Positions 1 through 45,393 of a stretch of DNA of 45,393 nucleotides are shown here, one piece after another. The notes under the pieces are model-generated. The model had not been told where the DNA came from. It saw only the letters and a list, made by a program, of their open reading frames with translations, and did no database searches. Numbering within the stretch: the first letter of the stretch is position 1; each line of letters begins with the position of its first letter. The stretch is taken from IMG/VR virus record IMGVR_UViG_3300023118_000012, positions 1 to 45,393 of that record; one strand, given 5' to 3'. Position numbers and translations under genes: made by a program. Source of the DNA: a virus.

Positions 1-126
1 GGATAAGGCGGCCCTCATATCGGCGCCCCTCGCATGATGACAGATATCAAACTGCGCTTTGCTGACGTCGCCGAGTATGAGGCGGCGGCCCCGTGGACAA
101 CCCGTGACGCCGAGACCGGCGAGTTG
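1..126. repeat. End overlap, left copy (matches 45262-45387)
   Basis: Bases 1-126 are identical to 45262-45387; the last six bases of the window no longer match cleanly. The tail gene ending at 45298 runs into the gene starting at 34 through an ATGA overlap, so gene order is continuous across the junction. I read this as the overlap left by assembling a circularly permuted genome. A genuine short terminal repeat is possible but less likely, because the repeat cuts through coding sequence. Confidence 0.9.
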
Positions 127-345
127 CTGACGTACCCGGGTGGTGAAGGGTGCTCCGTCGTGGCGGGTGTCACCGTCGTGACGGTGCCGGGCGTTTACGA
201 CCCCGAGACCCTGGCGGAAATCACGCCGCCGGTGTTGGCGCCGGGCTTCCATGTCGACGTCCGGTTAGTGGATCGTGACGTGCCCGAGGAGCTGACGCCA
301 TTCTTGGTCGCGCCGGCAATCTCTGCGCATGAGTTCGCCTCATGA
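34..345 (+). CDS. Small baseplate-cluster protein, function unknown
   Basis: 103 residues, acidic, with no membrane segment and no motif I recognise. It lies between the plug/lectin protein (which ends at 45298, equivalent to 37 here) and the hub gene, and is translationally coupled to both: its ATG overlaps the preceding stop as ATGA, and its own stop overlaps the next start the same way. Position suggests a small structural or assembly part of the baseplate, but nothing in the sequence proves it. A second ATG at 37 is possible. A partial second copy lies at the right end of the window because of the end overlap. Confidence 0.8.
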   Translation: MMTDIKLRFADVAEYEAAAPWTTRDAETGELLTYPGGEGCSVVAGVTVVTVPGVYDPETLAEITPPVLAPGFHVDVRLVDRDVPEELTPFLVAPAISAHEFAS

Positions 346-1169
346 CGCCCGAGCTGGACCCCCGCATACTGCGCGTCGGCATTGAGATCAGTGGAGAAAT
401 CCGCTGGTATGAAGGCCTCAATATCCATGTGTCGGGCACCAAGCTGGCGAGCGATGCGCAAAATCAATGCCAAATCGATATCAGCAATCTTTCGCGCGCT
501 ACCCGCAATTACTTGCTTACGGAAACCAGCCCGTTCAACAAAAACCGCAAGCCCAAAAAGGTCTACGTTGACGCCGGCCGGGTGAGCACCGGCACGGAGC
601 GCATGTTCGTGGGAGAGATCACCGAGGCCGGCGTGACGATGCCGCCAGAGATCACCCTTGAGCTCAAGGCGCAGACCGGCGCGTACCAAAAGGGCAACCT
701 CGTGGCACGATCGGGCCAGGCTCGGGACAAGCTGTCCACTATCGCGCAGCAAGTGGCTAAGGACATTGAATGCGATTTGGAGTTTGAGGCGGACGACAAG
801 GATATAGCCAACTGGAGCTTTTCCGGGGCCTCGCTTAAGCAAATCAACGCCCTGGCGCAGGCCGGAAAGGTGGACGTTTTCCAAGACGATACCACCCTCG
901 TGGTCAAGAACGCCGGCAAGCCGCTCAAGAACCGCGTCAAGATTATTCAGGCGGACACCGGCATGATCGGGCTGCCCGAGGCCACGGAACGCGGCATCAG
1001 CGTAACCATTTTATTCGACACGGACACTAATTTGGGCGGCGCCATTGAGCTCAAGAGCCAATTGAACCCGTCGCTCAATGGTAGCTATACGATTTACCAG
1101 CTCGCTTTCGATCTCTCCAGCCGGGAGAAAGCTTGGTATTACAAGGTGGAGGCGTCCCGCAATGACTGA
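342..1169 (+). CDS. Baseplate hub protein (gp27/gpD-like)
   Basis: 275 residues. In contractile phages the hub is a trimer that joins the tail tube to the central spike. The length, the beta-rich composition and the position directly before the Gp138-type spike and gp25 genes match hub proteins of Pam3-like and Mu-like baseplates. A stretch near residues 130-200 (starting DKLSTIAQQVAKD and including SLKQINALAQ) resembles the domain of gpD/gp27 hubs that ends in a short-peptide-binding fold. Start ATG at 342 overlaps the previous stop by ATGA. The next gene starts 8 bases before this stop. The assignment rests mainly on gene order. Confidence 0.75.
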   Translation: MTPELDPRILRVGIEISGEIRWYEGLNIHVSGTKLASDAQNQCQIDISNLSRATRNYLLTETSPFNKNRKPKKVYVDAGRVSTGTERMFVGEITEAGVTMPPEITLELKAQTGAYQKGNLVARSGQARDKLSTIAQQVAKDIECDLEFEADDKDIANWSFSGASLKQINALAQAGKVDVFQDDTTLVVKNAGKPLKNRVKIIQADTGMIGLPEATERGISVTILFDTDTNLGGAIELKSQLNPSLNGSYTIYQLAFDLSSREKAWYYKVEASRND

Positions 1170-3997: not shown

Positions 3998-5404
3998 ATG
4001 TCTAATCAGCGGTTTTTCCGGGTTCCATTTGCCGAGACTGGTGACAAGACGCCCATTCCCGACGTGATCGACGCGGGCGGCGCTATCTCTTATCCGCAGG
4101 GGTTCGGGCCGGACTATGAGCGGCCCCCCGTAAGCGACCCGCTGGCCAAGCGCGTGCCGCGCCCGCAGACCAATCAATACCTCTACGATATCACGCAAAA
4201 CCTTCGGCAGTACCAACTCATGGGTACGCCGGAGTGGGTGACCGCCGCGCAGAATGGCGGCGTATCGGTGCCCTACGCGCTCGGCGCCCGGGTGCTCTAC
4301 GATGCTGGCGGCGGCTTCTTGGTCTATCGATCGCTGGTTAACTCCAACGTCGCGCTGCCCACCGTCACGGCCAACTGGCGCGTGGACATGCCCTACCTCT
4401 TGGCCACGATCGCGCAGGCTCGGGCCGGCGTGTCGACGGACACCATTGTGCCGCCGTCGATCCTCGCGCAGGCCGTGCAGGAAGGGGCGTGGCGGTATGC
4501 CGTGGCGACGGGCACCAACACCCTCGTGGCGGCCTTCACGCCGGCCATAACCGCGTACGTCACTGGCATGGTGCTGCGCGTGCAAATCCCCAACACCAAC
4601 ACCGGAGCGGTCACGCTTGACGCGGGGGCCGGTGCGCAGCCCGTGCAGACGCAGCGCGGCGCGGCGCTCAAGGCTGGCGATCTCACGGCCGGCGCCATCA
4701 TGACGCTGGTTAAAGGCGCCGCCTCGTGGTTCTTGGCGGGGCTGTCCTTAAGTGACGTCGGCGGCCGGCTCCTCGGAACGCAAACGTTCAATACCGCCGG
4801 TACCTTCACCTATACCCCCACCCCGGGCACGGCGTTTGTCATCGCTACGGTGGTGGGCGGGGGCGGAGCCGGCGGCGGCTCCGGTATCACGGGCGCCGGG
4901 GCGTGCGCCGCCGGTGCGGGGGGCGCCTATGGCGCGAGCGGGCAAGGGCTCTATACCTCGGCGTTTGCGGGCGTCACCGTCACGGTCGGCGCTGGCGGCG
5001 TGGGCATTGCGGGCATTGGCCCCAGCGGCGGGGCGTCATCTTTCGGTGCCCTTCTATCTGCGCCCGGCGGCCCGGGGGGTGAGTTTATCGCCCCCACCAC
5101 TGGTGTTTCTGTCGCGGCCTGCCCAGGCGGTTCGCCGCCTACCGGGTGGAACATATGGCGTAACGCCCCCCAGGTTGGTACCCCCGGCGTCTCGCTCGGC
5201 GGCGGCACCGGGTACGGCGGCATTGGCGGCAGCGGGGCATATGGTGCCGGCGCCAATGGGCGCCTATCGACGGCAAACGGAAGCCCGGCGGTGGACAGCC
5301 ACGGCGGCGGCGGCGGCGGTGCTTTCAGCGCGCCTAGCAATGCGGTCAACCGGCTGGGCGGCAATGGCGCGACAGGCATTGTTATAGTGCAGGAGTTTTC
5401 GTGA
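3998..5404 (+). CDS. Tail fibre with glycine-rich C-terminal domain
   Basis: 468 residues. The N-terminal about 150 residues presumably attach to the baseplate. A middle region around 150-255 carries the GAVTLDAGAGAQPV type of repeat common in fibres. From about residue 265 to the end the protein is strongly glycine-rich, starting with TPGTAFVIATVVGGGG, the signature of the glycine-rich domain that binds receptors in many phage adhesins. The last residues (GNGATGIVIVQEFS) are the usual ending of that domain. GGAG lies 8 bases before ATG 3998. The next gene is a fibre chaperone, which supports the call. Likely the main host-range protein together with the lectin-like plug protein. Confidence 0.88.
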   Translation: MSNQRFFRVPFAETGDKTPIPDVIDAGGAISYPQGFGPDYERPPVSDPLAKRVPRPQTNQYLYDITQNLRQYQLMGTPEWVTAAQNGGVSVPYALGARVLYDAGGGFLVYRSLVNSNVALPTVTANWRVDMPYLLATIAQARAGVSTDTIVPPSILAQAVQEGAWRYAVATGTNTLVAAFTPAITAYVTGMVLRVQIPNTNTGAVTLDAGAGAQPVQTQRGAALKAGDLTAGAIMTLVKGAASWFLAGLSLSDVGGRLLGTQTFNTAGTFTYTPTPGTAFVIATVVGGGGAGGGSGITGAGACAAGAGGAYGASGQGLYTSAFAGVTVTVGAGGVGIAGIGPSGGASSFGALLSAPGGPGGEFIAPTTGVSVAACPGGSPPTGWNIWRNAPQVGTPGVSLGGGTGYGGIGGSGAYGAGANGRLSTANGSPAVDSHGGGGGGAFSAPSNAVNRLGGNGATGIVIVQEFS

Positions 5405-5961: not shown

Positions 5962-6783
5962 GTGGACAAGGCCGCATTCTTTGACATGGTTCGCAAGGCC
6001 CCGTTTGGCGGCTCGTTGTCCGCCAAGCAGGTGGCCGGTATGGAGGCGTTTCTAAATCACGTCCCCAGCTCCCGAGCCATCCCGCATCTTGCCTATGAGT
6101 TGGCCACGCAGTTCCACGAGACCGGCGAAAAAATGGTGCCGGTTGTGGAAAACCTCAACTACACCACGGCGGCCCAAATCCGCAAGACGTGGCCGACGCG
6201 CTTTGCATCGGACGCCGCCGCTGCACCCTATGTCAAAAACCCCCAGCTCCTCGCCAACAAGGTTTACGGCGGGCGCATGGGGAATGTCGGCGCCAATGAC
6301 GGGTGGACCTTCCGAGGCCGGGGCGGCCCCCAGCTCACCGGCCGCGACATGTATCGCAAGGCGGGGGACAAGCTCGGGATTGACCTTGAGAGTAACCCTG
6401 ACCGCATGCTTGAGCCGGACATTTCGGCCAAGGTGACGGACCTCGGCATGAGTGAGGGCTGGTTCACCGGAAAGAAGCTGGGGGACTATGACACCCCGCA
6501 AGGTTTCTCCGCCACTAGCGCCCGCGCGATCATAAACGGGGACGTGGCGGCCAACGGCGCCAAGATCGCCGGGTACTGCTCTGACTTCGCCAAGGCGCTC
6601 ACCGCTGCCGGCTGGGGCACGCAGGCCCCGGCGGAGCCCGAACAACCCACGCCCGCTCCCACGCCGGAGGTAGACCGCGCGCAGCAAGCAGCATATGCTT
6701 GCATCCAAGCGCAGGTTACCGTCTCGGCGGAGCTCGCCAAAGCATTCGGCCTTACCCTCACGTGGAGCTTGACCAAGCCATGA
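5962..6783 (+). CDS. Endolysin, GH19 chitinase/lysozyme fold
   Basis: 273 residues from GTG 5962. Phage GH19 enzymes cut peptidoglycan glycan strands at the end of infection. The FHETGE motif (residues 51-56) holds the expected catalytic glutamate (Glu53), and GRGGPQLTGR at 119-128 is the conserved GH19 substrate-site motif. The catalytic domain covers about residues 1-215. It is followed by a proline-rich linker (PEQPTPAPTPE) and a roughly 45-residue helical tail ending in LTWSLTKP, which is unusual and might aid anchoring or wall binding. No signal peptide is visible, so export should depend on the membrane proteins encoded next. The stop overlaps the next start as ATGA. Confidence 0.92.
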   Translation: MDKAAFFDMVRKAPFGGSLSAKQVAGMEAFLNHVPSSRAIPHLAYELATQFHETGEKMVPVVENLNYTTAAQIRKTWPTRFASDAAAAPYVKNPQLLANKVYGGRMGNVGANDGWTFRGRGGPQLTGRDMYRKAGDKLGIDLESNPDRMLEPDISAKVTDLGMSEGWFTGKKLGDYDTPQGFSATSARAIINGDVAANGAKIAGYCSDFAKALTAAGWGTQAPAEPEQPTPAPTPEVDRAQQAAYACIQAQVTVSAELAKAFGLTLTWSLTKP

Positions 6784-42767: not shown

Positions 42768-43400
42768 ATGGCCGGTATCCTCGACGCCCTAGGGCCCGCC
42801 ATAGACGTTGGCCGGAGCCTCATCCGCCCGTCGCAAGCGGTCGATGTCGTGGCCATCCTCGGGCCGGGCTTTGTGCCGCTATGGTCCGCCCTACGCCCAT
42901 TGGAGGCCGCCGTATTCGAGAGCGCGGACCTCATGGAGCACCCGGTTGAGAATGGTACCGTGATTGCGGACCATCTCGTGCACCACCCGCGCGAAATTCT
43001 CATGCCTATGGTGTGCATTGGCGAGCGCGAGTACCGGAGCACATACGCCAGCCTCAAGGCGGCGTTCATGGCGGGTATCAAGCTCACCATCACGACCCGC
43101 ACAAGCTCTTATTCGGACATGATCTTGACGGACATGCCGCATGAGGAGACGCCCGACCGGTTCAACGCCATCTCTATGGCGCTTCGGTTCCGTGAAGCGA
43201 TCGTAGTTACGCCTCAAAGCGGCGGGCTTACCGAGGAGCAGACGCAAGACCCCGCGCAAGCCTCCACCCAGGCCGGCGGCACCAAGCAGACCACGACGCC
43301 CTCAACCGCTCAAGCGGCGCAGGGCTCCACCTCCTACGCCAATTCCGGGGCCGGCGCCGCGCCACAAGGCTCCACCCTCTACCAGTGGTATAGCCAGTAA
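42768..43400 (+). CDS. Dit-like baseplate/tail protein
   Basis: 210 residues. DALGPAIDVGRSLIRPSQAVDVVAILGPGFVPLWSALRPLEAAVFESADLMEHPVENGTVIADHLVHHPREI is a typical Dit-like N-terminal domain; the C-terminal 55 residues are low complexity (Q/T/S/G-rich) and end YQWYSQ. It would be the first ring after the tube. It directly follows the tape measure stop; its stop overlaps the next ATG. Confidence 0.82.
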   Translation: MAGILDALGPAIDVGRSLIRPSQAVDVVAILGPGFVPLWSALRPLEAAVFESADLMEHPVENGTVIADHLVHHPREILMPMVCIGEREYRSTYASLKAAFMAGIKLTITTRTSSYSDMILTDMPHEETPDRFNAISMALRFREAIVVTPQSGGLTEEQTQDPAQASTQAGGTKQTTTPSTAQAAQGSTSYANSGAGAAPQGSTLYQWYSQ

Positions 43401-45298
43401 TGCGCGTCATCCCCCTCGCCACGGCCCCGCAACAGTCACTTTCGGTTCGGCTCGACGATAGCCGGCTCGTGCTTACCCTCAAGAAGGTCAAGGGCTGCAT
43501 GGTTGCGGACCTTGAGCGGGATGGGGAGTACGTCATTCGGGGAACGCGGGTGCTGGCGGGGGAGCCAATCATTCCCTATGCCTACCTTGAGGAGGGCAAT
43601 TTTCTCCTCCAGACGATCAACGATGAGCTCCCCGATTGGACGCAGTTCGGCGTGTCGCAAACCCTCCTCTATCTCACGGTGGCCGAAGTGACGGACCTAA
43701 AGCGCTACATCGATATTGACGACGCTACCCGGCTCGCCGAGGGCAGCGGGTACGCGGCGCCTACCCCCTCGGTGCTGGGGGCGGATGAGTTTGTTTATGG
43801 GGTGGCGGTGCAGGGCTCCACCATTGAGGTGGTGCTTGCTGGGGTAGTCTATACGCCCACGGTGAGCGCGGTGGACGGCTCGTGGAAATTCCCCGTACCG
43901 TTGCTGGAGAATGGCACCTACCCGATTGTAGCGCGGTACGTCACGCCGGTTGCAGGGCCGTGGTCCGAACCGTTCCTGCTCGTTATGCCCACGCCCTATC
44001 TCATCGCTCTGCGCGCGCAGCTCTTTGGTGAGCCTGCCGGTATGGTGCTGGACTATCTGCGCAACGCGGCGCTCGTGCAGCTCCCCGGCAATACATACCT
44101 CGGCCCGGCGAGTGGGCTGGGGGCGTTTACCCGCGCCACCACCAAAACGCGCCTTAATGCGGCGGGCATCCTGCAGTCCGTGCCTGTTAATGAGGAGGCG
44201 TTTGATTTCAGCTTGGCGGGGGCGGCGCTGGGCCTGTCGATGGAGGGGGCGCGCACCAACGTCATTCTCAATAATACCATGGTTGGTGGCGTAGCAGGAA
44301 CCCCCGGCACTTTACCGACCGGGGGTTGGAGTACTTCAGACGGCGGCCTTACTAGAGCACTTTCTTTTGGTGTTGAGGATGGCATTAATTATATCGATGT
44401 TAAATACGCCGGTATAGCGAGTGGAACAGAGGCGTTCATACTCCTTAGCACCGCCTATTCTGCTGCGATTGCTTCGGGATCGGCTTACACCGGCAGTGTA
44501 TTTGCGGGGTTTACCGATCTAATAACGCCCCCCAATTCTGCGGATCATCGTTTATATTGGGTGGCTGGTGACGCGAATGTATCCGGAACCGCAATACCTG
44601 TAAGCGTAATCCCGGCGGGGGCACTTAAAACCAAACGCATATTGCAGACACGCACCCCGACATTAGCAGCTACAGGGGTACAGACTAGGGTTCGATTTGC
44701 TCTAACCATCGGTAATTCCTATGACTTCACCATTCGCATTGGATTGCCTCAACTAGAAGCAGGTACTTTCGCCTCATCTCCAATCCTTACAGGCGGAACC
44801 ACCGCCACCCGCGCGCAGGATTTCCTGACCTTCGGGCCTACGGGTGGTCTACCCTTCGCAGGCTACGATCAGACACGCGGTGCCATTATCTGGGAAGGCG
44901 TGGTAGAGAATATTAGCGCCCTTACCATGGCTTTGTTTAGCATTTCCAATGACTCAATAACGGATACTATCCATGCAACTGTTTTAGCAACTGGAAATGT
45001 AAGGTTTCAGGTTATTGTGGACGGTGTTACACAAGCCCAAATATCCACCTTGGCTCCAATAGTTCCCAATACGCTTTTCCGCGTTCTGTGTCTGTGGGAT
45101 ACAAATCGATTTGAGATATGGCTTAATGGGGAAAGGGGCTCGGTGGATACCGCAGGCAGTATCCCTGCTTTGTCAGTACTAAAAATTGGACGTAGTGCAA
45201 CAAATGGCGCTGCACTATATGGCCACGTCGCCCGCCCGGTCTATTTCCCCACCCCGCCTTGGGATAAGGCGGCCCTCATATCGGCGCCCCTCGCATGA
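43400..45298 (+). CDS. Baseplate plug protein fused to a lectin-like domain
   Basis: 632 residues. The first about 100 residues (VIPLATAPQQSLSVRLDDSRLVLTLKKVKG, ERDGEYVIRGTRVLAGEPIIPYAYLEEGNFLLQT) match the Pam3-type baseplate plug, normally a protein of about 100 residues. Then follow an Ig-like region (about 130-200) and a large beta domain to the end that looks like a concanavalin/LamG-type carbohydrate binder (MEGARTNVILNN, GRSATNGAALYGHVARPVYF). The DNA for about residues 290-605 is AT-richer, with TTA, AGA and ATA codons rare elsewhere, suggesting an acquired host-range cassette. The stop overlaps the next ATG, which is the gene at 34. Confidence 0.8.
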   Translation: MRVIPLATAPQQSLSVRLDDSRLVLTLKKVKGCMVADLERDGEYVIRGTRVLAGEPIIPYAYLEEGNFLLQTINDELPDWTQFGVSQTLLYLTVAEVTDLKRYIDIDDATRLAEGSGYAAPTPSVLGADEFVYGVAVQGSTIEVVLAGVVYTPTVSAVDGSWKFPVPLLENGTYPIVARYVTPVAGPWSEPFLLVMPTPYLIALRAQLFGEPAGMVLDYLRNAALVQLPGNTYLGPASGLGAFTRATTKTRLNAAGILQSVPVNEEAFDFSLAGAALGLSMEGARTNVILNNTMVGGVAGTPGTLPTGGWSTSDGGLTRALSFGVEDGINYIDVKYAGIASGTEAFILLSTAYSAAIASGSAYTGSVFAGFTDLITPPNSADHRLYWVAGDANVSGTAIPVSVIPAGALKTKRILQTRTPTLAATGVQTRVRFALTIGNSYDFTIRIGLPQLEAGTFASSPILTGGTTATRAQDFLTFGPTGGLPFAGYDQTRGAIIWEGVVENISALTMALFSISNDSITDTIHATVLATGNVRFQVIVDGVTQAQISTLAPIVPNTLFRVLCLWDTNRFEIWLNGERGSVDTAGSIPALSVLKIGRSATNGAALYGHVARPVYFPTPPWDKAALISAPLA

Positions 45299-45393
45299 TG
45301 ACAGATATCAAACTGCGCTTTGCTGACGTCGCCGAGTATGAGGCGGCGGCCCCGTGGACAACCCGTGACGCCGAGACCGGCGAGTTGTCCACG
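45262..45393. repeat. End overlap, right copy (matches 1-126)
   Basis: 45262-45387 repeats 1-126 exactly. The last six bases, 45388-45393, differ at three positions from 127-132. It includes a truncated second copy of the small gene that starts at 34 (here 45295, cut off by the window end). Confidence 0.9.

Follow-up and report, generated by a model that had tools for sequence, protein, structure and literature searches.

In the simple contractile baseplates considered here, receptor-binding fibres are reported on the wedge. The small plug protein, also called BH1a, is described as filling the gap between hub and wedge with six copies, acting as a glue that is released on contraction, and it has been hypothesised to control contraction (PMC11915804). 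E217 gp33 is reported to be lost at contraction (PMC10329688), Pa193 gp34 is described as bound to the hub (PMC11042391), and P1 gp26 is assigned to the peripheral region, the fibres being placed on the wedge (PMC12810830). The small adaptors were assigned partly different partners in the accounts of E217 (PMC10329688) and Pa193 (PMC11042391), in both of which the plug copies appear without mutual contact. Adhesion modules on core tail-tip proteins are already known: the evolved Dits are core tail-tip proteins reported to contain inserted carbohydrate-binding modules (PMC7291167). A limited literature search by title or abstract found no plug-borne adhesin.

Here, we analysed a whole virus contig of 45,393 nucleotides (IMG/VR record IMGVR_UViG_3300023118_000012; hereafter, the window), in which a plug domain continues into a much longer protein. 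On balance, we read this 632-aa protein as a one-chain, plug-anchored receptor-binding protein with a glycan-binding head, derived from a cassette that was joined to the plug gene and whose binding domains were later swapped.

Anatomy of the fused gene

The open frame at 43400–45298 on the plus strand encodes 632 residues, of which residues 1–101 (43400–43702, plus strand) are a plug domain. Residues 1–93 matched the Pfam family Pam3_gp18, 'Cyanophage baseplate Pam3 plug gp18', above the curated cut-off (PF22479, E 8.6e-14; 52.3 bits against 24.2, covering positions 1–100 of the 101 in the profile). The best solved relatives of the domain are Pa193 gp34 (9b45_A, 'gp34 helical bundle', E 3.5e-8) and E217 gp33 (8env_G, E 5.7e-8). 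The gene also occupies the place of a plug gene: a Dit-like tail protein of 210 aa is encoded upstream (42768–43400, plus strand; PF21821, E 1.8e-12), and the baseplate hub (342–1169, plus strand; PF22759 E217_GP41, E 4.4e-82) follows after one extra gene in the closed genome. The end of the record (45262–45393) repeats its start (1–132) with 3 mismatches, closing the genome to about 45,261 nt. A normal tail fibre is encoded as well (3998–5404).

The plug of the nearest relative (locus L117) stops at residue 101, so that 531 residues of the window protein are extra, much as the original prediction of a plug of about 100 residues with some 530 more had it. By size, the protein is no ordinary plug of about 100 aa with nothing attached, as all 107 other plugs surveyed measure 68–144 aa; we therefore call it a plug domain with a graft. 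The extra sequence starts with residue 102 (43703), some 520 nt ahead of the shift in composition. Its first part, residues 102–205 (43703–44014, plus strand), is a linker with a possible bacterial Ig-like domain (Big_3_5, E 0.031, below cut-off). An adhesin base segment follows at about residues 240–294 (44117–44281, plus strand; the range was estimated from the alignment). It is related to Rcc01080, the head spike fibre of a gene transfer agent, since the base-segment profile (alignment A5, positions 7–61) matched PDB entry 6tb9 with an E-value of 1e-13. The RcGTA head spike fibre is reported to bind capsule (PMC10218006).

GC and GC3 are 0.604 and 0.772 in residues 1–101, 0.641 and 0.769 in residues 102–205, and 0.653 and 0.761 in residues 206–276. 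They drop to 0.532 and 0.478 in residues 276–480 (44225–44839, plus strand), which the predicted strands of the model suggest to be a jelly-roll, and to 0.478 and 0.412 in the lectin-like residues 481–611 (44840–45232, plus strand). The C-terminal tail, residues 612–632 with the stop codon (45233–45298, plus strand), is again normal in composition (0.683 and 0.762), the GC3 of 22 comparison genes of the window ranging from 0.67 to 0.85. The dip at 44225–45232, where GC3 falls from 0.76–0.77 to 0.41–0.48 and then recovers, agrees with the shift in codon use that had been noticed at 44270–45230.

The lectin-like nature of the extension, also proposed originally, is borne out by the fold. Residues 511–608 matched Laminin_G_3 below the threshold (19.2 and 22.1 bits against a cut-off of 27.6; E 0.00019 for the lectin piece alone), and we therefore call the domain lectin-like by its fold and do not file it in that Pfam family. 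In the predicted model of residues 98–632, built with 55 sequences (mean pLDDT 72), confidence is high for the lectin (blocks mostly 88–96) and low for the linker. VIA-align superposed model residues 486–624 on a part of NanC, which we take to be its lectin domain, with a Z-score of 15.8 and an rmsd of 2.2 over 137 residues. The NanC and NanB sialidases, CBM40, pentraxins and laminin LG4-5 appeared in the same list, with a Z-score of 12.7 still at rank 50. Residues 242–617 also matched phrog_5939 (E 1.4e-21), and among viral predicted structures the top two rows were held by phage concanavalin A-like proteins (414 and 385 aa).

The lectin module and its companion gene elsewhere

The stretch 44224–44838 is 93.3% identical over 615 nt to another contig, IMGVR_UViG_3300023118_000009 (L002), in which the module forms a 573-aa protein of its own and whose flanks are unrelated and cannot be aligned. 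Such a likeness needs a recent horizontal exchange of the block, and the composition dip is more than drift because these 615 nt are common to an unrelated context. An exact 24-mer from the exchanged block found only L002 among viral contigs, and a DNA search of phage records with 44100–45298 gave no match.

A scan with the jelly-roll family gave 227 confirmed places, 80 of which were kept. We read 84 module loci, including the window and loci found earlier; two are duplicated (L002 as L166 and L005 as L219), further near-copies remain, and 65 are distinct. The lectin with its C-terminal part is elsewhere mostly a free-standing protein of about 400–450 aa, and a plug was absent from all 83 other loci of the lectin family. 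Among 62 loci examined for composition, GC3 drops by more than 0.15 in the module in 16 of the 23 that have high GC3, the window included; the dip therefore marks the module and not only its acquisition by the window. The predicted horizontal acquisition is upheld by the shared block in an unrelated context and by the lack of plugs at the other loci, and a single acquisition proves too simple a history.

The next gene after the fusion across the circular junction (34–345, plus strand) encodes a companion protein of 103 aa (phrog_18574, E 4.5e-6). Of the 58 loci whose downstream frame was eligible, 41 have this family directly behind the lectin gene (counting the window and any near-copies), and among the surveyed plug-hub loci only the window has it. 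The cassette therefore probably moved as two genes, lectin and companion. Only the middle of the fusion gene is odd in composition; the plug, linker, base segment, tail and companion all have phage-like GC3. The fusion point lies well ahead of the shift in composition, so that the plug seems to have been fused first and the middle to have been swapped later.

Phage records contained no match to the companion protein at E 0.01, and a structure search with its model (mean pLDDT 70.9) returned nothing at E 0.001 or better. The phrog_18574 family, represented by the window gene and 26 aligned relatives (alignment A6), is perhaps a chaperone or a cap.

Genes behind extended plugs

Starting from the hub protein, we assembled 110 loci, consisting of 21 genome loci, the best 80 of 160 viral loci, eight phage records and the window; the viral scans relied on a hub alignment (A2) and a smaller plug alignment (A3). 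A single-protein scan found no close hub relatives. A plug was in view in 108 of the 110 loci, and in the other two the hub lies near a contig edge. One hundred plugs measure 68–114 aa (68 aa being one partial match), seven measure 130–144 aa, and the window has 632 aa. None of the 107 other plug loci carries the fusion, and the grafted domain is therefore not a uniform feature of relatives with normal composition.

The hub lies within 80 nt downstream of the plug in 98 of the 100 loci with ordinary plugs. Directly behind the plug in all seven loci with extended plugs lies an extra gene, mostly of fibre, tailspike or lectin type, a label assigned by hand on family support that varies. It is a pectate-lyase-like tailspike in L047, a GDSL esterase followed by a sub-threshold laminin-G-like protein in Stenotrophomonas phage B2 (L009, plug of 141 aa), and a 417-aa protein lacking a family match followed by a BNR/sialidase-like protein in Pseudomonas phage KLEP17-4 (L008, plug of 140 aa). 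The neighbours in L077 and L080 have matches over part of their length, to depolymerases and fibres in the former and to tail proteins in the latter. Neither the L078 gene nor KLEP17-4 gp21 gave a family match; by eye, the first 80 or so residues of the L078 neighbour resemble those of the L080 neighbour.

Two loci run against a strict rule, and both were included in the counts. Behind an ordinary 104-aa plug, L098 has a 188-aa protein and an adhesin-like 611-aa protein (NosD below cut-off), and in L031 a 242-aa gene without the look of an adhesin (5989–6717) intervenes between plug and hub. The 188-aa protein of L098, encoded between plug and hub at 4240–4806, has a repeat-like C-terminal tail that by eye resembles the tail of the extended KLEP17-4 plug, and it is possibly another adhesin anchor.

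Other arrangements were met in passing. In L037 (11809–13390) the extended plug has moved behind the main tail fibre gene, and immediately after it comes a second fibre gene, whose product is glycine-rich; here the hub directly follows the Dit-like gene. The plug of Salmonella phage PCSE1 (L006, 4001–4684) has 227 aa with a short extension that looks Ig-type, and the hub is not the next gene. Because L047 carries a pectate-lyase-like tailspike, we compared the hub region of Acinetobacter phage AP22, which we rejected as a precedent: there the gene immediately ahead of the hub is the 92-aa gp46, and the tail protein gp54 is encoded after the fibre gene.

For the hub tree, 73 of 136 rows were kept, near-copies that agree in plug state having been removed. 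On this tree the extended state requires 7 changes, at least 5 of them on well-supported branches, and its clustering is not significant (120 of 500 shuffles were as low). In the reduced set of 73, an adhesin-type neighbour accompanies 8 of 8 extended plugs, counting the window's own head as one of the eight, versus 1 of 65 plain plugs. A Fisher test that ignores kinship gives 7e-10 for this association. A kinship-aware sign test on five pairs, with 4.9 on average in the same direction and none opposite, reaches only p 0.0625 because there are just five pairs.

Fused plugs were not found in wider searches either. Pam3_gp18 occurs in 45, 6 and 11 genomes out of 268, 385 and 398 in three overlapping sets, and none of these genomes has a plug match in an open frame longer than 316 aa. 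All 38 plugs of the fetched prophages have 97–110 aa, as read from their given coordinates, with none of the extended type. Our own plug profile recovers 23 of the 46 loci of that set and thus misses more distant plugs. A second viral scan, made with plugs, yielded 49 loci, none fused, and its only extended plugs were the L047 and L080 contigs again.

The plug as a proposed anchor for receptor binding

How might the fused protein function? The plug domain would sit in the hub-wedge gap in six copies per tail, each carrying a head via the linker, which is perhaps Ig-like. The head would comprise the spike-base segment, the jelly-roll and the laminin-G/CBM40-like lectin, and, if exposed, it might bind a host surface polysaccharide in addition to the normal tail fibre. 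The published placement of plugs would give the window phage, if its virion is built alike, six lectin heads per tail where hub and wedge meet, in addition to the fibre. The original prediction had put the domain at the centre of the baseplate, a position that does not agree with the off-axis place of the plug family in the published accounts (PMC11915804, PMC12810830, PMC10329688, PMC11042391). As to its origin, the two-gene cassette of the lectin and the 103-aa companion might have entered the junction between plug and hub, where it would have been joined in frame to the plug, and the binding domains of the adhesin would later have been swapped by recombination. Because plugs are a glue lost at contraction, glycan binding by the head could put tension on the joint that keeps the baseplate in one piece.

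Some features fit this reading less easily. The plug may have a buried C-terminus, which would count against the reading. Many fibres are trimers, and since plug copies make no mutual contact, the assembly of a plug-borne head is not obvious. The fusion was found in one genome only, and its maintenance cannot be shown because no relative has it.

There is some chance, if a small one, that the cassette inserted behind the plug and came into frame with it by accident, the lectin being made separately through an internal start or cleavage, with the plug working as usual and the fusion itself having no role. The module does work alone in other loci, and no other upstream stretch in the open frame resembles a Shine-Dalgarno sequence as strongly as that of an in-frame TTG at residue 272 (-12.0, against -11.2 at the 1% level of random sequence), while ATG 281 scores -8.4. 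However, the spacing at TTG 272 is long, with 14 nt between AGGAGG and the start, and starting there would remove the base segment that stand-alone relatives keep, whereas the best-fitting stand-alone starts, ATG 196 and ATG 215, score only 0.1 and -2.8. Moreover, the linker and base segment retain coding composition, and in the seven relatives the extra, mostly adhesin-type genes are tied to extended plugs. The internal starts were looked at and are not convincing. The strong AGGAGG before TTG 272 (44192–44215) may arise from the coding sequence by chance.

That the extension is a stabilising or decorating baseplate domain and not a receptor binder strikes us as improbable. Laminin-G and jelly-roll folds also serve protein-protein contacts, and the Foldseek list for the model includes the Pa193 baseplate chain 9b45_1 (E 2.2e-4), but receptor binding fits better with a swap of just the jelly-roll and lectin domains and with the enzyme or tailspike genes that relatives carry in this position. 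A chimeric record, with sequence of two viruses joined close to its end, is very unlikely: the open frame ends about 100 nt before the record does, but the plug-lectin junction is in frame, the overlapping record ends run on into the companion gene that typically stands behind the lectin in other phages, and the plug, linker, base segment and companion share the GC3 of the phage. Least credible of all is that the composition mirrors selection on the module itself and not recent transfer: the recurrence of the dip across the module family would suit such an origin, but the near-identical block between unrelated flanks needs a recent exchange.

The receptor-binding reading may extend beyond the window. 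A second receptor-binding protein seems to have docked at the plug repeatedly, and the window shows the one-chain form of this arrangement. A tentative generalisation, which we consider less likely than not, would make the hub-wedge plug a general second docking site in simple-baseplate myophages, the adhesin docking either as a separate protein by a short C-terminal anchor tail, as in the plugs of 130–144 aa, or in one chain as in the window. Because the plug glue must leave for contraction, a plug-hung adhesin could couple surface binding directly to baseplate release, by a route separate from the wedge-fibre one described for E217. Should plugs carry adhesins too, receptor-binding genes in the stretch from plug to hub have been missed by annotation in these phages, and how surface binding triggers contraction becomes directly testable, the adhesin being on the part that must let go.

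The window protein may finally be set beside the systems it resembles. The plugs Pam3 gp18, E217 gp33 and Pa193 gp34 belong to the same family as its N-terminal 101 residues and are likewise encoded between a Dit-like gene and the hub; P1 gp26 is counted among them on its naming in the literature. Where a size is stated, known plugs have about 100–107 aa and no binding head, and the window differs from them by its graft. The phage concanavalin A-like or phrog_5939-type tail proteins and Rcc01080 of RcGTA have the base segment and lectin head in common with the window, but as stand-alone adhesins, whereas the window head is fused to a plug. Stenotrophomonas phage B2 and Pseudomonas phage KLEP17-4 resemble the window in having an extended plug and adhesin-type genes before the hub; these are, however, separate genes rather than one chain, and their contents are unrelated. 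Evolved Dits of siphophages likewise have a glycan-binding module on a conserved core baseplate protein, besides a normal receptor-binding protein (PMC7291167). The window has no such module in the galectin-domain loop of a Dit, its Dit-like gene being separate, and it uses another core protein, in a contractile phage, with a C-terminal fusion in place of a loop insertion. By analogy, the window protein would thus work like an evolved Dit without being one and, if our reading is true, might represent the contractile-phage counterpart to these proteins.
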